From positions 1 through 10,313 of the forward strand of contig JALGZO010000257.1 of NCBI GenBank assembly GCA_025774865.1: DNA of 10,313 bases, given 5' to 3'. A program made the position numbers and the translations under genes. The stretch comes from a bacterium (lineage in GTDB: Bacteria > ARS69). Below the pieces are notes generated by a model. The model made no database searches, was not told where the DNA came from, and saw only the letters and a list, made by a program, of their open reading frames with translations. Below are positions 1 through 10,115 of the stretch, in pieces (position 1 is the first letter of the stretch; the number at the start of each line of letters is the position of its first letter).

Positions 1-827
1 TGCGTCGTCGAGAGATCCGCGTGGCCCAGAAGCTCCTGCACGACGCGCAGATCCGCCCCCCCCTCCAGCAGATGCGTGGCGAACGAGTGCCGAAGCGTGT
101 GCGGGGAGACCCGGAGCAGCAGGCCCGCGTTGTCCGCGTGTCGCTTGATCAAGAGCCAGAAGCCCATGCGCGAGAGCCGGCGCCCTCGTCGGTTCACGAA
201 GAGAGCCGTCTCCCGCGGATCCTTGACGAGCGCGGTCCGGCCGTGCCGAATCCACCCCGTCACCGCCCGAAGCGCGATGCGCCCGATCGGAACCCAGCGC
301 TCGACGTCCCCCTTGCCTCGCACGCGGAGAAGCCCGGGGTCCACGTCGAGATCGGCCAGATCGACGCTGATCGCCTCGGTCGCGCGCACGCCTGTCGCGT
401 ACCCGAACTCGAGGAGAGCGCGGTCCCGCCAGGCGACGGGATCGTCGCCGGACGGAGAGGCGAGAAGCCGCTCCATCTCGGGCACCGTCAGTGCCCCCGG
501 GAGCTTTCGCTGTCGGCGCGGTCCGGCCACCTCGCGCGTCGGATCCGCTTCGGCCGCACCGGCCGCGACGGCGAAGCGGTGCAGCCCGCGTACCGCGGAA
601 AGTCGTCGGCTGACCGTCGAGGGTGCGCGCCCGAGGTCGCGCTGCCCCCGCAGGAACTCCGTGATGTCGTCGCGGTCGGCCCCCCCCACCACCTCGACAC
701 CACGATCCGCGAGGTGCTTCACGTACGCTGCGAGGTCACGCCGGTAAGCGTCGAGCGTGTGGCGGGATAGCCCCTTCTCCACCGCGAGCTCGTCCAGGAA
801 GAGGCGCACCGCGGTCTCGGCTCTCAC
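1..827 (-). CDS. xerD: Xer-family tyrosine recombinase (XerD/XerC), 3' end beyond window
   Basis: Site-specific tyrosine recombinase, probably resolving chromosome dimers at a dif-type site at division. The frame is open for 275 codons to the left edge. Residues 1-85 form the N-terminal SAM-like DNA-binding domain (pattern TLDAYRRDL). The catalytic domain shows R148 in YATGVRATE, K172 in GKGDVERWVP, H243 and R246 in PHTLRHSFATHLL, and H269 in LLGHADLSTT. Spacing is almost identical to E. coli XerD (R148, K172, H244, R247, H270). The nucleophilic tyrosine would lie just past the edge, so the gene is cut by the window, not broken. The GTG start overlaps the ogt stop as GTGA and follows a strong ribosome site, GGGAGGAG at about 832-840. 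Motif spacing favours XerD, but a single Xer protein may be named XerC in this lineage. Being last in a repair/recombination operon fits a chromosomal housekeeping recombinase rather than an integrase. Confidence 0.93.
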   Translation of the reverse strand, partial: MRAETAVRLFLDELAVEKGLSRHTLDAYRRDLAAYVKHLADRGVEVVGGADRDDITEFLRGQRDLGRAPSTVSRRLSAVRGLHRFAVAAGAAEADPTREVAGPRRQRKLPGALTVPEMERLLASPSGDDPVAWRDRALLEFGYATGVRATEAISVDLADLDVDPGLLRVRGKGDVERWVPIGRIALRAVTGWIRHGRTALVKDPRETALFVNRRGRRLSRMGFWLLIKRHADNAGLLLRVSPHTLRHSFATHLLEGGADLRVVQELLGHADLSTT

Positions 828-1351
828 CCGGTCTCCTCCCGGAGGTCCAGCTCGGTCTGGCCGTGCTCGATCGCCAGGAGCCTCCGCTTCATCGCGGGGC
901 CGCACGAGTAGCCCCCCAACCCTCCGCCCTCCCGCAGGACACGGTGGCACGGGACGACGAGCGGAAACGGATTCCGGTGCAAAGCGTTCCCCACCGCTCG
1001 CACCGCGCCGGCCCGTCCGATACGCCGCGCGACGTCGCCGTACGTACGGATCTCACCGAACGGGATGCCGCGTACCGCCTCGAAGACCGACCGCTGGAAG
1101 CCGGTCACGCCGCGCAGGTCGAGCGAGCCGTCCCACGCCAGCGGCCGCCCCCGCAGGTACTCCGCGAGGGCGTCGGCGAGCTCGGATCGATCCGACTCGG
1201 TATCGATCTCGATCCCCTCGACCGGCTGTCCTTTCGTCGCGGCCGCCGCCTCGGGAACCGCTCCGAGACGCACTGCCACGAGACCGACCGGGGACCTCCA
1301 CGCGTGCACGACGATCCCCGCGCCGCGGACCTCCAGGTGGGAAAGCTTCAT
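824..1351 (-). CDS. ogt: Methylated-DNA--protein-cysteine methyltransferase
   Basis: Suicide repair protein that moves alkyl groups from O6-alkylguanine (and O4-alkylthymine) in DNA to its own cysteine. The 175-residue product has the usual length for Ogt/MGMT without an Ada regulatory domain. Residues 1-80 are the variable N-terminal domain. Residues 82-170 are the conserved methyltransferase domain, with GFQRSVFEAVRGIPFGEIRTYGDVA, the helix-turn-helix arginine-finger region GRAGAVRAVGNALHRNP, and the active site PCHRV with acceptor C135. The C-terminal GGYSCG region is also typical. The ATG at 1349-1351 overlaps the uvrC stop in ATGA and follows GGAGGAG at about 1355-1361. A much longer upstream open frame only shadows uvrC and was rejected as the start. 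Placement after uvrC groups two DNA-damage repair activities in one transcript. Confidence 0.95.
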   Translation of the reverse strand: MKLSHLEVRGAGIVVHAWRSPVGLVAVRLGAVPEAAAATKGQPVEGIEIDTESDRSELADALAEYLRGRPLAWDGSLDLRGVTGFQRSVFEAVRGIPFGEIRTYGDVARRIGRAGAVRAVGNALHRNPFPLVVPCHRVLREGGGLGGYSCGPAMKRRLLAIEHGQTELDLREETG

Positions 1352-3198
1352 GACTCCTCCGCCCCTCCGAGGTGGGTCCAGAGCGACAGCGCGAGCTCTC
1401 GTCCGATGCCGGGAACCTCCGCGATCTCGGACAGCGTCGCCTTCCGGATCGCCTCGACCGAGCCGAATCGATGGATCAACACCCGCCGTCTTGATGGACC
1501 GATCCCCGGCACTTCGTCCAGTACGCTCGATGCTACCCGGCCACCTCGCCGCCGCCGATGGGCGCGGAGTGCGAAACGATGCGCCTCGTCCCGCACGCGC
1601 TGCAGCAGCTTCAAGGCGTCGGCGTCGGGGGGGAGCCGCAACGGTTCCGCGCGACCCGGAAAGAAGATGAGCTCCTCTCGCTTGGCCAACGACACGACCG
1701 GAAGATCCTCGAGCGCCTCCGACGCCAGCGCGCGCGAGGCCGCGCCCAGCTGCGTCGGCCCGCCGTCGATGAGCATGAGGTCGGGACGACCGCCGGCCGT
1801 GCGGATGCGGCGCGCGCGACGACGGACCGCCTCCTCGATGGCGCGGGGATCGTCGCGACGGGGCGCTTCGCGGATGCGAAACGTGCGGTACTCCGCTTTC
1901 GCCGGCGCCCCCTCTTCGAACACGACCATTGATGCGTACGTGTCGGTGCCCTGGATCGTCGAGATGTCGAAGCCCTCGATGCGGCGCGGGGGCTTCGCCA
2001 GCCCGAGGGCCTTCGCCACCGCGGCCACGGCCGTCTTCGGGCCGCGACTTCTTGCCTCGAGCCCGGTCTCCGGGCGAGCAAGTGCGACCTGAGCGTTGTG
2101 CTCCGCCATCTCCAGGAGCCGCACCCCCACTCCACGACGCGGGATCCGGAGCGCGACCTGACGCCCCACCTTGTCGCCGAGCCACTCCCGCAGGAGGGGA
2201 GCGTCGCCGGGCTCCGTGCGGACGAGGATCTCGCGGGGCACGCGATCGTGCAGGTGGTAGAAGCCGAGAAACAGGCCGCGGAGAATCTCGCTCTCGCGCT
2301 CGGCCGGCGTGCAACCGATCTCGATGCGGTCGCGACCGATCACACGACCGTCGCGCACGGAGAGGAGAACGCCGATCGCCTGTCGGCCGAGCCTGACGAA
2401 ACCGACCGCGTCGACGTCGCTCTGACCCTTCAGCGTCACGTGCTGCTTCGCGACCGTCTTCTTCAAAGAGAGCAGCCGATCCCGGAGCTTGGCCGCATCC
2501 TCGTAGCGCATCTCCCTCGCGGCGCGCACCATGTCGCGCTCGAGAGTGATGACCACATCGTCCTTCTTGCCGTCGAGAAACCGGAGAACGTCGTTCACGA
2601 TGGTCCGGTATTCCTTCGGGTCGACGTCGCCACGACAGGGACCCACGCAGCGACCCAGGAAGTAGTCCAAGCAGCCGCGCTCCGACATCCCCGGAACGAG
2701 GTTCAGCTTGCACGTGGGCAGCGGGAAGACGGTCCGCAGGGTCTGCAGCGTCCGACGCATGGCGCCGACATCGGTGTAGGGGCCGAAGAAGCGTGACCCG
2801 TCGCTTTCCATCTTGCGCGTGGGAAAGACGCGGGGAAACGTCTCGGGCAGAGTCACCTGGATGTACGGGTACTTCTTGTCGTCGCGGTACACGACGTTGT
2901 AGCGCGGACGATGCTCCTTGATGAGGTTGTACTCGAGGAGAAGCGCCTCCATCTCGGAGGGTGTCACGATGAAGTCGATCTCGTGCGTCGAGTCCACGGT
3001 GCGCTGCACCTTGGGTGCGAGATCGGCCGGATTGCCGAAGTAGCTGCGCACTCGTGAGCGCAACGACTTCGACTTGCCGACGTAGATGACGCGCCCGCCG
3101 CCGTCGAGGAACAGATACGCGCCGGCGCTCTTGGGGAGGCCCTGCGCCTGGCGCACGAGCCGCTCCCGACGCTTCGCCTTCGATTCGCCGCGGCTCAT
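1348..3198 (-). CDS. uvrC: UvrABC excinuclease subunit C
   Basis: Nuclease subunit that makes the 3' and then 5' incisions around lesions in nucleotide excision repair. The 616-residue length is normal (E. coli about 610). Domains in order: GIY-YIG nuclease at residues 20-100 (GAY, YVGKSKSLRSRVRSYF, E84 region, HRPRYN); a cysteine cluster C163, C176, C184, C188 at nearly the spacing of the E. coli iron-sulfur ligands; UVR domain near 217-250; RNase H-like 5' nuclease with D411 (FDIS), D478 (LIDGG) and H540 (DEAHRF); and a C-terminal tandem helix-hairpin-helix (EVPGIG twice, 562-600). The ATG at 3196-3198 overlaps the murJ stop as ATGA. An upstream ATG at 3387 would bury 63 codons of low-complexity sequence in murJ and is not credible. 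No clear ribosome site precedes the start, so translation is probably coupled to murJ. Confidence 0.97.
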   Translation of the reverse strand: MSRGESKAKRRERLVRQAQGLPKSAGAYLFLDGGGRVIYVGKSKSLRSRVRSYFGNPADLAPKVQRTVDSTHEIDFIVTPSEMEALLLEYNLIKEHRPRYNVVYRDDKKYPYIQVTLPETFPRVFPTRKMESDGSRFFGPYTDVGAMRRTLQTLRTVFPLPTCKLNLVPGMSERGCLDYFLGRCVGPCRGDVDPKEYRTIVNDVLRFLDGKKDDVVITLERDMVRAAREMRYEDAAKLRDRLLSLKKTVAKQHVTLKGQSDVDAVGFVRLGRQAIGVLLSVRDGRVIGRDRIEIGCTPAERESEILRGLFLGFYHLHDRVPREILVRTEPGDAPLLREWLGDKVGRQVALRIPRRGVGVRLLEMAEHNAQVALARPETGLEARSRGPKTAVAAVAKALGLAKPPRRIEGFDISTIQGTDTYASMVVFEEGAPAKAEYRTFRIREAPRRDDPRAIEEAVRRRARRIRTAGGRPDLMLIDGGPTQLGAASRALASEALEDLPVVSLAKREELIFFPGRAEPLRLPPDADALKLLQRVRDEAHRFALRAHRRRRGGRVASSVLDEVPGIGPSRRRVLIHRFGSVEAIRKATLSEIAEVPGIGRELALSLWTHLGGAEES

Positions 3199-4802
3199 CT
3201 TCGCCGTGCCGACGCGCGCCCCGGCAGGGAGTCGAGGATCTCCGCCATCTCGTCGTGCCGGAGCCAGCGGTACGCCAGCAGGAGGAAGCCGAGACCGAGC
3301 GTGATGGCGGACCCCACTTCGACGATTCGGGGTACGAAGCCGTCGCCGGGGACCCAGCGATTCGCCAGGGCGAGCCCGGCGAGGCATCCCGCCGCCAGCG
3401 CGGCGCTCGCCGCCAGCGAGCGCCCGAACGCGCGCAGCAGGCTCGCCGCCGGGAGCCGTCCGACCCGTCCGCCGAGGCTCCGGAGCAGGAGCGCGACGCT
3501 CAGATAGGAGGCGAGACTCGTCGCGAGGGCGAGGCCTCGGAGTCCCAGGGGTCCCATGAGGAGAAGATTCAGCGCGATGTTGGCGACCATGGCGATGGAG
3601 GCGATACGGACCGGCGTCTTCGTGTCCTGAACCGAATAGAACGCCTGCGAGAGCCCCTTGACAAGGCCGTACGCCGGCAGCCCGAACGCGTAGAAGAGCA
3701 AAGCCGAGGCCGTCATCGGCGTCGAGCGCTCGCCCGAGAACTCGCCGTATTGGAAGAGGAGCGCCACGATCGGCTCGGCCAGGAGCGCCAGACCCACCAT
3801 GGCCGGCACGAGCAGCGTCAGCAGCAGGCGCAACGTGTGGGCGAGCGTGTCGAGCAAGGCCGCACGGTCGTCCTGCGCGGCCCGGAGCGAGAGCGCCGGC
3901 AACGCGGCGGTGGACACCGCGACACCGATCACGCCGAGCGGCAACAACGTCACCCGGTTTCCGAGCCGCAGCGCCGTCAGCGATCCCTGCTCGAGCCGCA
4001 AGGCCAGCAACGTGTCGACGAAGAGATTCAGCTGCGTCACCCCCAGCGCGATGAGCCCCGGCACCATGAGCGCACCCACCCGCCTCACGTCCGGGTCAGT
4101 CGGCGCCCAGGCGGGCGAGATCGGCAGGCCGAGCTCGCGCATCTTCGGAAACATGACGACCCAGGCGGCGAGCCCCCCGACCAGCCCACCGATCGAGAAC
4201 GCGAACGCCCGAGACTCGAGGCTCGCGAGGGGTACCGCCGCCAGCGCGCCAGCCAGAAAGAAGACGCTGATCAGAATCGGAGAGAGCGCCGGTACGGCGA
4301 AATGGCGTAGCGCGTTGAGGGCAGCGCCGGCGAGCGCCGCCCCCCCGGCGAAGAGCAAATACGGAAAGAGCAGCCGGAGAAGTCGGACGGCGAACGAGAG
4401 CTCGTCGGGTCGCCCCTGCCAGTCGTGCGCGTAGAGTCGTACGAGCGGCTCGGCCAGCAAGAGTCCGAGCCCGACCATGGCGACGAGGATGACGAAGAGC
4501 ACGCCGAACGTACGGCGCAGGAATTGCCCGGCCTCCTCCGCGCCCCGCCGCTCGCGCAGCTCCGTGAACACGGGGATGAACGCGGGGTTGAGATTGCCTT
4601 CGCCAACGACCCGGCGGAAGAAGTTCGGGATCAGGAACGCGAGGTTGAAGGCATCCGCGACGAATCCCGTGCCGAACAGGACCGCGAAGGACGTGTCCCG
4701 GGCGAGGCCGAAGACGCGAGAGAGCATCGTCGCGGCGCCCACTTTCGCCGCCGTGCGCGTGATCGCCGCGCCTCCGCCCTTCCGTTCCCCACCCTGGCTC
4801 AT
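3195..4802 (-). CDS. murJ: Lipid II flippase MurJ (MviN)
   Basis: Integral membrane flippase that carries the peptidoglycan precursor lipid II across the cytoplasmic membrane; member of the MOP exporter superfamily. The 535 residues contain about 14 hydrophobic segments, the family number. Signature motifs are SRVFGLARD (R29, R35) and IPNFFRRVVGEG (R63/R64). Their spacing equals that of E. coli R18, R24 and R52, which line the central cavity. GNRVTLLPLGVIGVA carries R283, the probable counterpart of E. coli R270. The N-terminus is polar (about 20 residues) before the first helix, and the C-terminus ends in a basic cytoplasmic tail. The ATG at 4802 follows GGAGGGA. It is the first gene of the murJ-uvrC-ogt-xer operon and shares an ATGA junction with uvrC. 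Confidence 0.96.
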   Translation of the reverse strand: MSQGGERKGGGAAITRTAAKVGAATMLSRVFGLARDTSFAVLFGTGFVADAFNLAFLIPNFFRRVVGEGNLNPAFIPVFTELRERRGAEEAGQFLRRTFGVLFVILVAMVGLGLLLAEPLVRLYAHDWQGRPDELSFAVRLLRLLFPYLLFAGGAALAGAALNALRHFAVPALSPILISVFFLAGALAAVPLASLESRAFAFSIGGLVGGLAAWVVMFPKMRELGLPISPAWAPTDPDVRRVGALMVPGLIALGVTQLNLFVDTLLALRLEQGSLTALRLGNRVTLLPLGVIGVAVSTAALPALSLRAAQDDRAALLDTLAHTLRLLLTLLVPAMVGLALLAEPIVALLFQYGEFSGERSTPMTASALLFYAFGLPAYGLVKGLSQAFYSVQDTKTPVRIASIAMVANIALNLLLMGPLGLRGLALATSLASYLSVALLLRSLGGRVGRLPAASLLRAFGRSLAASAALAAGCLAGLALANRWVPGDGFVPRIVEVGSAITLGLGFLLLAYRWLRHDEMAEILDSLPGRASARRR

Positions 4803-4823
4803 GCCGTCCCTCCGCGGGCCGGC

Positions 4824-4852
4824 AGGATTCCACGAGGGGCCAACCCCGTCAA
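4824..4852 (-). promoter_or_regulatory. Putative sigma-70 promoter of the murJ operon
   Basis: On the minus strand TTGACG (4852-4847) is followed by a 17-base spacer and AATCCT (4829-4824), a moderate match to the vegetative consensus. Transcription would start near 4817, leaving a leader of about 15 bases with the GGAGGGA ribosome site. It lies back to back with the rpsT promoter. The -10 box matches only three of six positions. Confidence 0.4.
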
Positions 4853-4878
4853 TCCGGCCCAGCCATCGAGACCTCCCC

Positions 4879-4907
4879 TTGACCTAAGGCCCGGGAGAGC
4901 CTATGCT
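4879..4907 (+). promoter_or_regulatory. Sigma-70-type promoter of rpsT
   Basis: TTGACC (4879-4884), a 17-base spacer and TATGCT (4902-4907) give a good vegetative promoter. The predicted start is near 4914, with a leader of about 33 bases before the ATG. It is the best sigma-70 match in the window, as expected for a ribosomal protein gene. Confidence 0.65.
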
Positions 4908-4946
4908 CCCGCGACTCAGATTCCAGAAAACGGGAGAGGCCAGAGG

Positions 4947-5207
4947 ATGCCCCAGCACAAGTCCTGCGAGAAGCGCATACGCCTGAGCCGCAAGCAGAAC
5001 GCGCGGAATCGCACGATCAAGAGCGCGGTCAAGACGGCCACGAAACGGTTTCTCGCCGCCGAGGGCGAGGATGCGGAAGCGGCGTACCGGGCGGTCGCGT
5101 CGGAGTTCGACACCGCCGCGAAGAAGGGGGTCATCCCGAAGGCTCGTGCGAACCGCAAGAAGAGCCGCCTGGCCCGCGAGCTCAACCGAAGGTCGTCCCA
5201 GAGCTAG
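4947..5207 (+). CDS. rpsT: Small ribosomal subunit protein bS20
   Basis: Primary-binding protein of the 30S subunit that contacts 16S rRNA. The 86-residue product is the usual length and strongly basic. It begins MPQHKSCEKRIRLSRKQNAR, matching the S20 pattern (A-K-S-A-x-KR-x-R-x-x-x-x-R-x-x-N), and ends in the conserved KNxAxRKKSRLxR-type helix (KARANRKKSRLARELN, residues 65-80). The ATG at 4947 is preceded by CGGGAGAGG at about 4931-4939. A longer in-frame extension to the left has no S20 homology and lies over murJ in antisense. It is a monocistronic plus-strand gene between two minus-strand operons. Its TAG stop interlocks with the aldolase stop, and no intrinsic terminator is visible behind it. 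Confidence 0.96.
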   Translation: MPQHKSCEKRIRLSRKQNARNRTIKSAVKTATKRFLAAEGEDAEAAYRAVASEFDTAAKKGVIPKARANRKKSRLARELNRRSSQS

Positions 5208-5965
5208 CCACCCCGCGCCTGGGTTCGGAGCTCCGCCAGAACGCGTTCGGTTACCCGCGCCACGATCTCTTCGTCGGCCGTGGCGGCCGGAGGCGTCGCG
5301 GTTTCACACCCCGCCAACCCTTCCCGAACACCGTACCGGGCTCGCGCCGCGATCAGATCCTCGACCTGGGCCGGCGTGAGAGGGTCTGCCCCCCCCAGGA
5401 GCCGGGCCACCAAGAGAATCCGCGCGGAATGCTCGACCGTTTCGAGCCGCTGGTATGCCTCGAGCACATCGCTTCCGACCGCCACCGCCCCGTGGTTCTG
5501 CAGCAAGAAGGCGTCGTGGTTCCGGACGACGGGATCCAGCGTCTCGGCGAGCGCAGCCGTTCCCGGCGTGGCGTACCGGGCCAGCGGCACTTGCCCCAGC
5601 CCGACGATCACCTCGGGAAGCACGCACTCGGACAGCGCGATGCCCGCCGCCGCGAAGCCGGTGGCCACGGGGGGATGGGCGTGCGCGACGGCCCGGATCT
5701 CGGGCCGCGCATCGTAGATCCGGAGGTGCATTCCGGTCTCGGAGGAGGGCTGCCCCCGGCCATCCACGAGACGCCCGCCGCGATCGACGAGGATCAGATC
5801 GTCGACCTCCACATCGCCCTTGCGAATGCCCGCGGGGGTGATCAATACCGTCGAGTCCGAGATGCGAACCGAGACGTTGCCGTCGCGGCCCGCCACGAAC
5901 TGCCGCGCGTCGATGTGCCGGCAGACGCGCACGAGGTCGCGCTTGATCTCGTGCAGGGGCCTCAC
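5204..5965 (-). CDS. Class II aldolase (FucA/RhaD type) with C-terminal encapsulation peptide
   Basis: Zinc-dependent retro-aldolase, probably splitting fuculose- or rhamnulose-1-phosphate into dihydroxyacetone phosphate and lactaldehyde in the microcompartment lumen. Motifs: GNVSVR (29-34) and TPAG (43-46) for phosphate binding, SSE with catalytic-type E76, and zinc ligands H95, H97 (HAHPP) and H158 (QNHGA). They match E. coli FucA E73, H92, H94 and H155. By my alignment FucA Y113 is replaced by L116, whereas Y209 has a counterpart in Y211, so the substrate may differ. FucA ends near residue 215; this 253-residue protein adds an Ala/Pro linker (about 221-229) and an amphipathic helix with IVARVTERVL (234-243), the form of a BMC cargo-targeting peptide. 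The GTG start overlaps BMC-P3 as GTGA. It is the last gene of the BMC operon. Confidence 0.9.
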   Translation of the reverse strand: MRPLHEIKRDLVRVCRHIDARQFVAGRDGNVSVRISDSTVLITPAGIRKGDVEVDDLILVDRGGRLVDGRGQPSSETGMHLRIYDARPEIRAVAHAHPPVATGFAAAGIALSECVLPEVIVGLGQVPLARYATPGTAALAETLDPVVRNHDAFLLQNHGAVAVGSDVLEAYQRLETVEHSARILLVARLLGGADPLTPAQVEDLIAARARYGVREGLAGCETATPPAATADEEIVARVTERVLAELRTQARGG

Positions 5966-6240
5966 TCGTCTCGCCCCAAGCGAACCTCGTCCACGACCCC
6001 GACGATGACGGTGCGGATCGGCGGCTGATCGAGCTCCAATACCTGGCCGGCGGAGTTGCCTTCGTCCAAGACCAGAACCCGGTCGCCCTCCCCCGCACTC
6101 ACCGAGTCGATGGCGAGGTACGCTTCTCCCCGAGCCTCGCCGCGGAGATCGAGCGGCCGTACGAGCAAGATCTTGGCTCCGGTGAGCGTCTCGTCCTTGG
6201 CGGTCGCCCAGACCGACCCGACGACGAGCCCGAGTTTCAC
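5962..6240 (-). CDS. EutN/CcmL-family vertex protein (BMC-P3)
   Basis: Pentameric protein expected to cap shell vertices. The 92-residue length and the N-terminal MKLGLVVGSVWATAKDETL are typical of EutN/CcmL, as are LLVRPLD, AIDSVSAGEGDRVLVLDEGNSA (43-64) and the closing IVGVVDEV. The GNSA at 61-64 stands where classical members have GSSAR. The GTG start at 6238-6240 overlaps the BMC-P2 stop (GTGA), and the stop overlaps the aldolase start the same way, so the three genes are probably translationally coupled. It is closest in the window to BMC-P2 in its WAT-K-D N-terminus, suggesting an old duplication. Family assignment is firm. That it is a pentamer at vertices is family knowledge, not visible here. 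Confidence 0.93.
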   Translation of the reverse strand: MKLGLVVGSVWATAKDETLTGAKILLVRPLDLRGEARGEAYLAIDSVSAGEGDRVLVLDEGNSAGQVLELDQPPIRTVIVGVVDEVRLGRDE

Positions 6241-6524
6241 GCTTCGCCGCCCGCGTCTACGTTCAGATCGGTCCCGTCCACCAGGCCGAGGATCGCGGCA
6301 TCCAGGGGCGCGAACTTTCCGGGAAACGCCTTCGCCGCTTCACGCGCCCGCACGAAGAACACGCGATCGCCTTCGCGCACCGACACGTTGTCCGCCGCGA
6401 CCAGCGGTTCGCCGGTCGGTCGACCGGATTCGTCCTCCGGACGGATGATCCGCAGCTTGATCCCGTGCACTGTCGGGTCTTTGACGGTGGCCCAGACGGT
6501 CCCGATCACGCGCGCGAAGTTCAT
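6237..6524 (-). CDS. EutN/CcmL-family vertex protein (BMC-P2)
   Basis: Second of three pentamer-type shell proteins, 95 residues. The fold signature MNFARVIGTVWATVKDPTVHGIKLRII is clear at the N-terminus, followed by ADNVSVREGDRVFFV (44-58) and ILGLVDGTDL near the end. The usual GSSAR loop is replaced by a longer basic stretch, REAAKAFPGKF (61-71), the most divergent of the three. The ATG at 6522-6524 overlaps the BMC-T stop in ATGA and is preceded by AGAGGA. The stop overlaps the BMC-P3 start. The altered loop may change which neighbours this subunit packs against at the vertex, which is inference only. Confidence 0.92.
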   Translation of the reverse strand: MNFARVIGTVWATVKDPTVHGIKLRIIRPEDESGRPTGEPLVAADNVSVREGDRVFFVRAREAAKAFPGKFAPLDAAILGLVDGTDLNVDAGGEA

Positions 6525-7132
6525 TCCTCTTCGTCTCCTCCGCCGAGCTGCCGGTCCCCGCGAAGGAGTCCCCGCCCGACGCGCCGGGCCAGCGTCGCAT
6601 GCGGCCCCGCGAGGATCTCGGTATGGAGATGATACCCGCGCAGATCGACCACGGCCCTCGCCGCCTGCGCCGCCGCCTCCACCGCTGCCACCTCACCCGT
6701 CATCGTGAAGAAGCCCTTCCCTCCGATACCACGCCCCGCGCCGATCTCCAGGAGCCGCACCCGCGCCGCCTTCGCGGCGGCGTCGGCCCCGACGATCGTC
6801 GCGGCGACGGAAAGCGTCTCCACGACGCCGATCGCGACGCCCAGCTCACCGATCTCCCCGGTCCGCTCGATCGCCGGGGCGACGTCGGCGTGCACTCGAG
6901 GCAACAACAGCTCGTCGACCAGATGCGGGACGCAGATTGCGCGACCCGCCCCGAGCGAGGCCTCCACTTCCGCCACTCCCCCGGAAAAGACGACGAGAAA
7001 CTTCCCCGGCGAGATCGGACACGCTTCGACCAGGTGCACCTGCGCCGTCTTCAACACCTGGTCGGTCGCTCGCACGCCGGCCGCGATCGAGCTCGTCTCG
7101 AGCATCCCGAGGGCGTCGCCGCGGAGCCTCAC
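6521..7132 (-). CDS. Tandem BMC-domain shell protein (BMC-T, PduT-like)
   Basis: Trimer-forming shell protein with two fused BMC domains, forming a pseudohexameric facet tile. Domain 1 (about 1-95) begins GDALGMLETSSIAAGVRATDQ; domain 2 (about 96-185) begins LGVAIGVVETLSVAA and has the pore loop IGGKG (136-140). It aligns along its length with PduT. PduT C38 lies in ICPGKF at the threefold pore and binds an iron-sulfur cluster; here the equivalent residue is S41 in ISPGKF, with the only nearby cysteine at C38, three residues earlier. A polar acidic tail (about 185-203) follows domain 2. The GTG start is six bases after the aldehyde dehydrogenase stop with no clear ribosome site, suggesting coupling. 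The stop overlaps BMC-P2. The start is supported by alignment of EALGxxET in the BMC-H proteins. Confidence 0.9.
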   Translation of the reverse strand: MRLRGDALGMLETSSIAAGVRATDQVLKTAQVHLVEACPISPGKFLVVFSGGVAEVEASLGAGRAICVPHLVDELLLPRVHADVAPAIERTGEIGELGVAIGVVETLSVAATIVGADAAAKAARVRLLEIGAGRGIGGKGFFTMTGEVAAVEAAAQAARAVVDLRGYHLHTEILAGPHATLARRVGRGLLRGDRQLGGGDEEE

Positions 7133-7138
7133 GAGACG

Positions 7139-8608
7139 CTAGACGATGCGGAAGGAATCAATGAGGGTACACCGGCGGAACCGCGTGAAGCTTCGCGCCG
7201 TCGTCATCCCCTCACCGGTGGGACTCGCGATCGTGAAGCTCGTGTACCCCTCTCCCCCCGCTCCCAGGCCCGAGTAATTCGGTCCGTTCTTCACGAAGAT
7301 CGAGCAGTCGATGATGCGCGCCATGCGAGAGAGCTTGTCGACGTTCTTCGAGTACATCGACGCCGTATGGTAGTTCCCCCCTTCCACTTCACGGGCGAAG
7401 TCGATCGCCGTATCGACGTCGCGCACGCCGGCGACGCCGACCACGGGCATCATGAGCTCGGTCCACAGGAAGGGATGATCTTCGTCGACCTCGGCCACGA
7501 GGAGGCGAGTGTCCTTCGGCCCCGAGACGCCCGCGGCTTCGAGGATGACGCCCGCGTTCTTGCCGATCAGTTCTCGATTGATCTTCGATGAGTGACGCGG
7601 ACCACGATCCTCCGTCAGCACCGTCTTCCGTACGACGTCGAGAGTCCGACCCTTCAATTCGAAGGCGCCCGCCGCGACGAGGCGATCCATCAGGCTCCTC
7701 CGGATGCGATCGACCGCGATCACTTCCTTCTCATCCGTGCAGACGATGTTGTTGTCGAAGGAAGCCCCGCTATAGATCCCGTGCGCCGCGACGTCGAGGT
7801 CCGCCGTCGTGTCCACCACCACCGGGGGGTTGCCGGGCCCCGCCGTGATCGCCCTCTTTCCGACGCTCATCGCTTCCTTCACGACACCGCCGCCTCCGGT
7901 CACGACGAGGAGACGGACTTTCTCGTGCCGCATCAGGCCCTGCGTGACCTCGATCGACGGCTGCGCGATCGTCGTGAAGACGTTCGGCGGACCTCCCGCC
8001 CCTCGCACGGCTTCCTCCAACAGCGACACCGTTCGAAGCGAAACTTCCCGGGCGCCCGGGTGCGACGCGAAGATCGTCGCGTTCCCACCCGCCAGCATAC
8101 CGATACCGTTGTTGATGATGGTCTCGGAAGGATTCGTGGACGGCGTGACGGAGAGAATCACGCCGTACGGTGCGCGTTCTTCGAGCATCAACCCGTGGTC
8201 GCCCGATTTCGCGTAGGGGATGAGGATCTCGGTCCCCGGTGACTTGCGCCCGACGAGGAGGTTCTTTCGGATCTTGTCGTCGACGCGGCCGAGACCGGTC
8301 TCCTTGACCGCGAGCTCGGAGATCGCCGGCGCGTGCTCCTCCACCGCGCGGCGACAGGCGGCGATCATCGCGTCGCGGGTCTCGAGTGAGGTGTCGCACA
8401 GATCCAGAAACGCTTGTCGCGCGGCGGAGGCAGTCTCGTCGACGGTCTCGAAGATGGGGCCACCCGACGACCGCCGAGCGGCAGAAGCCGTAGGCGCCGC
8501 AGCCGGCGCGACCGGGCGGCCCGCGGCGACCTCGAGAGCGCCCTGGGACTCGAGCCGCTTCACGACCCGCGCGACGATCGAGTCGATCCGGCCGGCGTCG
8601 ATCCCCAT
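7139..8608 (-). CDS. CoA-acylating aldehyde dehydrogenase (PduP/EutE family) with N-terminal encapsulation peptide
   Basis: Oxidises an aldehyde to acyl-CoA with NAD+ in the compartment lumen; with the aldolase the substrate is probably lactaldehyde, giving lactyl-CoA. The 489 residues contain VTPSTNPSETIINN (154-167) in the cofactor-binding domain, the catalytic cysteine C290 in ASFDNNIVCTDEKEV, and WTELMMPV around E384, all of the PduP/EutE type. Residues 5-22 form an amphipathic helix (RIDSIVARVVKRLES) followed by an Ala/Pro-rich linker (about 24-50), the layout of a BMC encapsulation peptide. The core enzyme starts near residue 52. The ATG at 8608 is preceded by GAGGGAGA, 15 bases downstream of BMC-P1. 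A canonical non-acylating function is unlikely given the family, but the exact aldehyde is inferred from context. Confidence 0.93.
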   Translation of the reverse strand: MGIDAGRIDSIVARVVKRLESQGALEVAAGRPVAPAAAPTASAARRSSGGPIFETVDETASAARQAFLDLCDTSLETRDAMIAACRRAVEEHAPAISELAVKETGLGRVDDKIRKNLLVGRKSPGTEILIPYAKSGDHGLMLEERAPYGVILSVTPSTNPSETIINNGIGMLAGGNATIFASHPGAREVSLRTVSLLEEAVRGAGGPPNVFTTIAQPSIEVTQGLMRHEKVRLLVVTGGGGVVKEAMSVGKRAITAGPGNPPVVVDTTADLDVAAHGIYSGASFDNNIVCTDEKEVIAVDRIRRSLMDRLVAAGAFELKGRTLDVVRKTVLTEDRGPRHSSKINRELIGKNAGVILEAAGVSGPKDTRLLVAEVDEDHPFLWTELMMPVVGVAGVRDVDTAIDFAREVEGGNYHTASMYSKNVDKLSRMARIIDCSIFVKNGPNYSGLGAGGEGYTSFTIASPTGEGMTTARSFTRFRRCTLIDSFRIV

Positions 8609-8623
8609 GCTCTCCCTCGTTCG

Positions 8624-8932
8624 TCAGACGCCGGCCTCGGACCGGGCCTTGTCGTATCGGACCTCGCCGCCCGTCTCGAACGAGTCCACGATCGCCATGA
8701 TCACGGCATCGACCGGCGTGTCGGCCGTCATTTGCGTGAGTCGAGCGGAACTCCCCGCCGCGGTGAGAACGATCTCGCCGTGCCCCGCCCCGACCACGTC
8801 CACCGCCACGGTGAACGTGCCAGTCGGCTGGAGGTCGAGACCCACCGTCTCCACGACTTGGAGCTTGAAGCCGGAGAGCTTGCTCTCCTTGCGGGTGGCG
8901 ACCACCGTCCCCACGACCCGACCGAGGGTCAC
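8624..8932 (-). CDS. EutN/CcmL-family vertex protein (BMC-P1)
   Basis: Pentamer-type shell protein of 102 residues and the most canonical of the three here. It shows MTLGRVVGTVVATRKESKL at the N-terminus, VDVVGAGHGEIV (44-55) and the GSSAR loop (60-64), ending in a slightly longer polar tail. The GTG start lies two bases after the BMC-H2 stop, so translation is probably coupled. It sits among the hexamer genes and the aldehyde dehydrogenase, apart from the P2/P3 pair, which suggests a different role or an earlier divergence. Confidence 0.94.
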   Translation of the reverse strand: MTLGRVVGTVVATRKESKLSGFKLQVVETVGLDLQPTGTFTVAVDVVGAGHGEIVLTAAGSSARLTQMTADTPVDAVIMAIVDSFETGGEVRYDKARSEAGV

Positions 8933-8934
8933 GA

Positions 8935-9231
8935 TCAGGCGCCGGCCGGTTCGGCCGTGCGGCCGACCGGCAGCACCTGCTCCACGTTCTGGTGCGGGCG
9001 CGGGATCACGTGCACGGTGACCAGCTCACCGACCTTGTTGGCCGCCGCCCCGCCGGCATCGGTCGCGGCCTTCACTGCCGCCACGTCGCCTCGAACGACG
9101 GCGGTCACGTAGCCGCCTCCGATCTTCTCGTATCCGACCAGGGTGACGTTCGCAGCCTTCACCATCGCGTCGGATGCCTCGACCAAGGCCACGAAGCCGC
9201 GCGTCTCGATCAGCCCCAGAGCCTCACTCAT
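8935..9231 (-). CDS. BMC-domain hexameric shell protein (BMC-H2)
   Basis: Single-domain shell tile of 98 residues forming cyclic hexamers on the facets. It begins [29 protein letters not shown], the standard BMC-H opening. The pore loop is KIGGG (36-40), and VIPRPH (75-80) marks the end of the domain. The ATG at 9231 follows a strong GGGGGAGGT ribosome site, fitting a highly expressed shell component. It is a clear paralogue of BMC-H1, 37 bases upstream, with a different pore loop and tail. Confidence 0.96.
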
Positions 9232-9268: not shown

Positions 9269-9565
9269 TCAGGCCGAAGGTGCTTCGTCGGTTCCCTTCA
9301 GAAGGATATCTTCCAACATCGAGTGTGGGCTGGGGATCACCCGGCTGGAGACGAGCTCTCCCACCCGGCGCGCCGCCTCTTCGCCGGCGGCGACGGCCGC
9401 CTTGACGGCCCCGACGTCCCCGCGCACGAGAGTCGTCACGTAGCCCGAACCGATTCTCTCGTAGCGGGTGAGCCTGACGCGAGCCGCCTTCACCATCGCG
9501 TCCGAGGCCTCCACCAGCCCCACGTACCCACGCGTTTCGATCATGCCGAGCGCTTCACCCCCCAC
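9269..9565 (-). CDS. BMC-domain hexameric shell protein (BMC-H1), first gene of the BMC operon
   Basis: Single-domain hexameric shell tile, 98 residues. It has [27 protein letters not shown] at the N-terminus, pore loop RIGSG (37-41) and [13 protein letters not shown] (76-88). The GTG start at 9563-9565 follows AGGGAGG at a suitable distance. An internal ATG seven codons in would delete the conserved first strand and is unlikely. It is the first coding gene of the operon; the DNA upstream carries a hairpin, a promoter-like element and a terminator. Compared with BMC-H2, the pore has Arg/Ser in place of Lys/Gly, so the two may pass different molecules. Confidence 0.95.
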
Positions 9566-9580
9566 AGACGCCTCCCTCGT

Positions 9581-9618
9581 CTCGTCATGGCCGGCCGTAG
9601 GATCGGCCGCGTGACGAG
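9581..9618 (-). promoter_or_regulatory. Leader hairpin upstream of BMC-H1
   Basis: CTCGTCA (9581-9587) pairs with TGACGAG (9612-9618), and inside it GGCCG (9589-9593) pairs with CGGCC (9604-9608), leaving a one-versus-three-base internal loop. On the minus strand the hairpin ends about five bases before the AGGGAGG ribosome site of BMC-H1. It could modulate translation or stabilise the mRNA 5' end. It could also be a DNA operator dyad. No U-tract follows, so it is not a terminator. Confidence 0.4.
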
Positions 9619-9654
9619 ATCCCCTCCGGGAACCCCGAACACTCCAGGTTATCC

Positions 9655-9684
9655 GGTGTAGCCGGTCTAGGCGGGGGCTGTCAA
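9655..9684 (-). promoter_or_regulatory. Putative sigma-70 promoter of the BMC operon
   Basis: A perfect TTGACA (9684-9679) is followed after 18 bases by TACACC (9660-9655), or after 17 by CTACAC. Transcription would start near 9648, about 83 bases upstream of BMC-H1, so the leader would include the 9581-9618 hairpin. The -35 is excellent and the -10 weak, which would suit activator dependence. It lies just downstream of an intrinsic terminator, the expected place for a new transcription start. Confidence 0.45.
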
Positions 9685-9699: not shown

Positions 9700-9733
9700 A
9701 AAAGGAAACGAGGGGAACGCTTTCGCGTTCCCC
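9700..9733 (-). terminator. Intrinsic terminator (or attenuator), minus strand
   Basis: A perfect 9-bp stem, GGGGAACGC with GCGTTCCCC (9712-9720 and 9725-9733), is closed on the minus strand by a GAAA tetraloop (GNRA type). It is followed by TCGTTTCCTTTT (9711-9700), rich in T. In the plus direction no T-run follows, so it acts leftward, on a transcript arriving from the right, before the BMC operon. Confidence 0.7.
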
Positions 9734-9773
9734 CCGCTACTTGGTCCCCCACTCTGATGCCGTGCGCCGAGTC

Positions 9774-9806
9774 GCCGGAGAAAAACTTGAACGGCGTCAA
9801 GCCGGC
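9774..9806 (-). other. Bulged hairpin
   Basis: Outer arms GCCGG (9774-9778) and CCGGC (9802-9806) and inner arms CTTGA (9786-9790) and TCAAG (9797-9801) pair around a six-base loop. The seven-base bulge AGAAAAA reads TTTTTCT on the minus strand. There the inner hairpin followed by five T residues resembles a weak terminator, so it could be a switching element or a pause site. Confidence 0.35.
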
Positions 9807-9896
9807 GGCCCACGAATCACGCACATCGCAGGAGACCGATGCCCCGATTTCCTCCGGAACGGAGCCCCGCCGGGCTGGCAAGGCTCGACGTCCCGG

Positions 9897-9984
9897 GAAC
9901 GGCCGGGGAGAGCGTCGAAAGCGGACCGCCGAGTTGTCTCTACCGGGAGGATTGGCCCGCTTTCTGGCTCTCCCCTTTGCGTTC
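9897..9984. other. Rod-like imperfect inverted repeat
   Basis: Three nested helices pair exactly: GAACG/CGTTC (9897-9901 with 9980-9984), GGGGAGAGC/GCTCTCCCC (9905-9913 with 9967-9975) and GAAAGCGG/CCGCTTTC (9917-9924 with 9957-9964). They are separated by small internal loops (3/4 and 3/2 bases) and close on a 32-base apical segment. Twenty-two base pairs in register in non-coding DNA suggest a selected RNA or DNA structure. On the minus strand it would begin five bases after the predicted sigma-54 start. Confidence 0.6.
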
Positions 9985-9999
9985 GCGCTGTGCATCTCG

Positions 10000-10015
10000 T
10001 GCATGGTGCGTGCCA
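10000..10015 (-). promoter_or_regulatory. Putative sigma-54 (RpoN) -24/-12 promoter
   Basis: On the minus strand TGGCACGCACCATGCA matches the RpoN consensus TGGCACG-N4-TTGCA except for one T-to-A change. The essential GG and GC doublets are exactly ten bases apart. With GC at -13/-12 the start falls at 9989, an A, five bases before the long stem-loop. An enhancer-like palindrome lies about 100 bases upstream. Confidence 0.5.
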
Positions 10016-10098
10016 GTACGCGAGTGACACGATTCCGTGCATTCGCTCAAACATCGCTGAAATTCGGGAAAACTGCTTCTGACGCGTGCGACGCAAGA

Positions 10099-10115
10099 TG
10101 CGAATGACATTCGCA
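10099..10115. promoter_or_regulatory. Perfect palindrome, possible enhancer-binding-protein site
   Basis: TGCGAATGACATTCGCA is an uninterrupted 8-bp dyad around one central base. Its centre is at about -118 relative to the predicted sigma-54 start, a normal place for an RpoN activator site. The half-site CATTCGC recurs at 10040-10046, nearer the promoter. The surrounding 10020-10115 stretch is visibly more AT-rich than the coding DNA. Confidence 0.4.

Follow-up and report, generated by a model that had tools for sequence, protein, structure and literature searches.

The RNA gene proposed here has its closest counterparts in three groups of described RNAs. The first is 6S RNA (SsrS; Rfam family RF00013), a long hairpin of about 180-190 nt with a long terminal arm and a large central bubble, the latter being needed for promoter mimicry. 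The second consists of the sigma-54-dependent small RNAs, among them GlmY/GlmZ, Qrr and CrcZ, which are small structured RNAs behind a -24/-12 promoter. The third group is found near microcompartment (BMC) genes, where the ethanolamine-utilisation RNAs (ANTAR-responsive leaders and Rli55-type elements) are located. The stretch of DNA analysed here (the window, 10,313 nucleotides) is the entire contig C260 of a 4.7-Mb MAG, and a region upstream of its BMC operon has something in common with each of these groups. We propose that the minus strand encodes a small RNA of about 290 nt between 9989 and 9700. It would be a 6S-like RNA in shortened form, controlled by sigma-54 and acting in trans on RNA polymerase. 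We give this reading a probability of slightly better than one in two (about 0.52). If the RNA does bind RNA polymerase, the synthesis of a 6S-type RNA would be wired to an alternative sigma factor, and sigma-factor competition by means of an RNA would become directly testable.

Layout of the predicted transcription unit

The features of the window on which the argument depends are all on the minus strand, and are given here in the direction of transcription:

10000-10015 (10015-10000 as read), minus: sigma-54 -24/-12 promoter element TGGCACGcaccATGCA, recognized from its sequence, with a predicted start near 9989
9897-9984, minus: 5' rod hairpin, a lineage-specific 5' extension of the RNA (fold z -3.4)
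9742-9840, minus: conserved core domain, a bulged hairpin with a 6S-like closing stem (94.5 bits with covariance model R1; covariation)
9700-9738, minus: intrinsic terminator with a 14-bp stem (stem-loop 9738-9707), GNRA cap GCGAAAGC and interrupted U tract
9655-9684, minus: sigma-70-type promoter of the BMC operon, TTGACA-18-TACACC, with a TTGAC hexamer that recurs at the equivalent place in other loci
9269-9565, minus: first BMC-H shell protein gene of the operon (PF00936, E 1.6e-29)
8935-9231, minus: second BMC-H shell protein gene (PF00936, E 4e-30)
5204-8932, minus: rest of the BMC operon, namely EutN, aldehyde dehydrogenase, tandem BMC protein, two EutN and class II aldolase (Pfam matches)

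The -24/-12 element had already been singled out in a sequence-only reading of this DNA, and a scan of the window bears that reading out: the invariant GG and GC are present at the correct spacing, and the pattern used finds no other such site in the window. The rpoN gene, whose absence from the genome had been named as fatal to the proposal, is found there (PF04552, 212.7 bits). The GNRA-capped terminator was also correctly recognized, with its 14 pairs folding at z -5.6, although a simple terminator scan would find 0.9 such sites by chance in 1.7 kb. An equivalent terminator hairpin, with a CTCGTTTCC.TTTGGG tail, is present at the orthologous locus of genome G003. The predicted 290-nt transcript as a whole folds at z -4.5. 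A protein-coding reading was rejected because none of the reading frames stays consistently open in the 61 RNA domains compared.

Upstream of the promoter, a perfect inverted repeat, TGCGAATGaCATTCGCA, lies at 10099-10115, roughly 85 nt from the -24 element, and is accompanied by a further ATTCGC at 10041. This repeat is a candidate site for an enhancer-binding protein, and it is absent from the other loci of the window's phylum that were examined.

The sequence-only reading had also named the rod stem-loop, and on this point it needs correction. The rod (9984-9897) does fold strongly, at about -50 kcal/mol and z -3.4 with no shuffle equally good, and a hairpin at the same position also folds in other members of the window's phylum. 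However, a rod at that position is restricted to this phylum, and its alignment contains compensatory change in only 2 of 10 consensus pairs, with a consensus energy of -2.8. The rod was therefore rejected as the functional core for want of covariation. The covariation that the sequence-only reading had proposed to look for in homologues is found instead in a second domain, which it had not mentioned.

A conserved core domain in five phyla

A nucleotide search of the family placed the conserved part of the RNA at 9743-9837. This core is a bulged hairpin of about 97 nt in the window, between the rod and the terminator, and ranges across the family from 93 to 112 nt with a short apical part. It begins with a closing stem, CCCUGC...GCGGGG, which includes a U-G wobble that is invariant in the family (GUGGG in the window), and continues through a 3' bulge, a second stem (NAUG..CGUG with CACG..CAU), a 5' AUU-type bulge and a third stem to the apical sequence, GUGGGCUGAUC(C/U)C...GAGU. 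Conservation of this apical sequence is strong in four of the five phyla in which the RNA occurs, and the window's own phylum has an altered form; a leader motif is shared by at least three phyla. In the phylum of genome G138, the closing stem, with the U tract that follows it, is itself the likely terminator, giving an RNA of about 150 nt, and the conserved leader is ACAACUGAAUA.

Compensatory changes argue that this fold is maintained as RNA. They occur in 14 of 29 pairs when six sequences are compared, a value reached by none of 500 shuffles, and in 12 of the 17 consensus pairs of a MAFFT alignment of 61 sequences. The U-G wobble of the closing stem is kept in all 61, and the pairs that surround it vary. 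Hairpins are cheap in a GC-rich window, and the folding z of some loci is only near -2, as would be expected if there were no RNA gene here and the element were a DNA-level palindrome, a mobile repeat or a GC-rich hairpin that arose by chance. We consider that explanation very improbable, given that the compensatory changes are lost when the pairing register is slid, that the promoter is conserved, and that there is usually one copy per genome.

The extent of the family was determined with three covariance models, R1, R2 and R3, built from three, six and twelve sequences, respectively. Together they find the RNA in 64 genomes: 4 of 5 in the window's phylum, and 7 of 8, 17 of 20, 7 of 7 and 29 of 47 in four other phyla. 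Nearly all of these genomes have a single copy. Promoter, alignment and neighbourhood were then analysed for 61 loci. A -24/-12 site scoring at least 6/8 lies within 220 nt upstream of the RNA at 53 of them, where a background of about 0.012 per 215-nt window predicts some 0.7 over all 61; seven more have a site scoring 5/8, so that 60 of the 61 homologous RNAs have one at 5/8 or better, and the last, at a contig end, was left unjudged. A pattern scan of the genome collection gave two true matches, on contigs of G138 and G004, and seven chance matches, and a search of the viral collection yielded one BMC-H relative only.

The original suggestion that promoter, structure and terminator coincide beyond chance thus gains support, because the arrangement recurs in related genomes. 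The more specific proposal of an undescribed RpoN-dependent small RNA that ends at the terminator is likewise supported, as far as sequence comparison reaches, by the occurrence of the RNA behind a -24/-12 site in five phyla, the compensatory changes, the rpoN gene and the lack of any Rfam match at gathering score. No earlier description of the RNA was found in the openly licensed literature, and the family appears to be previously undescribed. The known small RNAs would gain a family that is tied to sigma-54 and very common in several phyla about which little work has been done.

A weak match to R2 and R3 (31 and 25 bits) was noted in the G138 genome, between guaA and csp (locus L042, 8151-8270, minus strand). 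Its promoter is of sigma-70 type and its leader, GAAGUGAAUAG, is similar, so that it is possibly a paralogue under sigma-70 control.

Independence from the microcompartment operon

The RNA is found directly upstream of BMC genes, on the same strand, at 35 of the 61 loci, and at nine further loci BMC genes follow 2-6 kb downstream on the same strand. One way to explain such a location is a cis-acting, riboswitch-like leader or attenuator of the BMC operon, in which transcription from the sigma-54 promoter would end at the terminator unless some signal permits read-through, and the window's terminator does lie between the RNA and the first BMC gene. In 33 of the 35 directly adjoining loci, however, a TTGAC hexamer (background, 0.22 per 350 nt) is found between the RNA and the BMC genes. 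These hexamers are mostly TTGACA or TTGACC and are accompanied by a CTAxxxT-like -10. Because a sigma-70-type promoter intervenes in this way, the BMC operon would have no need of the promoter of the RNA.

A cis-acting leader should also share a transcript with its regulated genes in every case, and copies of the RNA are found that are standalone or separated from BMC genes. Genome G001 has one copy upstream of an orthologous BMC operon and another in an intergenic region away from BMC genes, each with a -24/-12 site upstream. The second (contig C11; L007, about 9269-9490, plus strand) lies between two opposite-strand genes and has a strong site. The RNA is also unlinked to BMC genes in G425-427, in G004 a convergent 2.2-kb gene comes between the two, and 11 genomes that bear the RNA have no PF00936 protein at all. 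Conversely, several genomes have BMC proteins and no detected RNA, and any single absence is soft evidence because the genomes are incomplete MAGs. The standalone copies and the separate BMC promoter led to rejection of a riboswitch or attenuator as the main reading, and we regard it as improbable. Taken together with the BMC-free genomes, they indicate from gene order and promoter sequence that the RNA is an independent gene and its own transcription unit. The statement that it lies upstream of the BMC operon thus holds as a description of a frequent location and not of an obligatory one. Microcompartment loci nevertheless gain a conserved RNA neighbour that belongs to no Rfam family.

Several features of these neighbourhoods deserve mention in their own right. 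In seven loci of one family (L093, L097, L100, L103, L104, L105 and L106), in genomes without BMC proteins, the RNA adjoins a phosphoglycerate mutase-like gene (gpmI by eye). In the window, the BMC operon is followed by aldolase, rpsT, murJ and uvrC (1-5200), and the same genes plus proS are found in another phylum (L041, 13000-20000), a case of long-range conserved synteny. Three tandem 9-bp units, CTAGACCGG CTACACCGG ATAACCTGG, overlap the presumed -10 region of the BMC promoter (window 9645-9672, minus strand) and could be an operator. Finally, a potential strong hairpin, CTCGTCACGCGGCCG...CGGCCGGCCATGACGAG, was seen by eye immediately before the ribosome-binding site that serves the first BMC gene (9569-9613, minus strand).

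Relation to 6S RNA and possible function

Neither the window nor any of five homologous loci gave a match at gathering score in a search against 4227 Rfam families, in agreement with the sequence-only reading that the RNA belongs to no known family. That statement must be qualified, since the closing stem is similar to that of 6S RNA. The RF00013 model matches exactly the RNA, on the correct strand, in 6 of 20 loci, with 24.9-34.1 bits and thus never at the gathering score of 46.4; it has no match to the window's own copy or to the copies of the next phylum, and one match, at L070, was lost once the sequence searched was cut to 141 bases. In two nhmmer tests, likeness to 6S came out weak or for the most part negative, with most true and null sequences alike below the reporting limit. 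They were replaced by a test of the closing stem, in which its two arms were aligned pairwise with 6S RNAs of the same phyla and compared with 100 pair-permuted nulls. The true scores exceed all 100 nulls in all five phyla (z 8-12), and 50 of the 61 closing stems score higher than any of 400 genomic stretches whose ends are self-complementary, counts that are not independent trials because the sequences are related to each other. As an example, CCCTGCCGTGCTCG is common to the RNA of G449 and the 6S RNA of G004. By these comparisons the closing stem is 6S-like, and descent of the RNA from 6S is likely.

The RNA is not simply the 6S RNA of these bacteria. A canonical 6S gene is found elsewhere in most genomes tested (for example, in the window's own genome, G000:C194:1924-2105, 59.7 bits), and R3 gives no match to the canonical 6S loci; identity with canonical 6S was rejected on these two grounds. 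Since canonical 6S is separately present, an additional 6S-like RNA would have to serve a role of its own. Under the reading that we prefer, sigma-54 RNA polymerase would transcribe the RNA from the -24/-12 element, and the intrinsic terminator would end the transcript. The core would keep the 6S-like closing stem, with more bulged helices after it, and a short apical part would stand where 6S has its long terminal arm. When an enhancer-binding protein activates sigma-54 promoters, the RNA would accumulate and engage the housekeeping holoenzyme through its 6S-like stem, and sigma-70 transcription would be damped or retuned for the duration of the sigma-54 programme. An obvious client, though an unproven one, would be the BMC operon with its own sigma-70-type promoter. 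Against this reading, the core has no evident large central bubble of the kind that promoter mimicry requires.

The main rival is a sigma-54-dependent small RNA that acts in trans by base pairing or by sequestration of a regulatory protein, as in the Qrr, GlmY and CrcZ type. The leader ACAACYGAAUA, the apical GGGCUGAUC(C/U)C or both would then be the recognition element, and the likeness to 6S would be convergent. The RNA's own promoter and terminator, the standalone copies, and the conservation of the apical sequence and leader motif would all suit such an RNA. However, the window's phylum has a changed apical sequence, and the 6S-like closing stem is left unexplained. Furthermore, when duplexes of the leader or apical sequences with the neighbouring BMC 5' region were predicted, native pairs did not outdo swapped ones, and pairing with that region was rejected on this basis. 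On balance we find this rival less likely than the 6S-like reading.

A broader form of the 6S-like proposal is a sigma-factor switch, in which a shortened 6S paralogue produced by sigma-54 activity occupies sigma-70 polymerase, the circuit being ancestral to several FCB-type phyla and kept beside microcompartment loci. We offer this only tentatively.

Among the described systems, the ethanolamine-utilisation RNAs resemble this one in lying near microcompartment genes. They differ in that the RNA described here has no Rfam match of that kind, is followed by the BMC promoter, and also exists without BMC genes. GlmY/GlmZ, Qrr and CrcZ share with it a small structured RNA behind a -24/-12 promoter, whereas the window has no Rfam match to any of them, the fold differs, and the present RNA occurs in other phyla and is linked to BMC genes. 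The likeness to 6S RNA includes the long hairpin and a closing stem that has the same U-G wobble as the 6S RNAs of the same phyla. In contrast to 6S RNA, the core described here is about 100 nt as against 182-191 nt and lacks the long terminal arm, and the gene has a sigma-54-type promoter and is present in addition to the canonical 6S gene.
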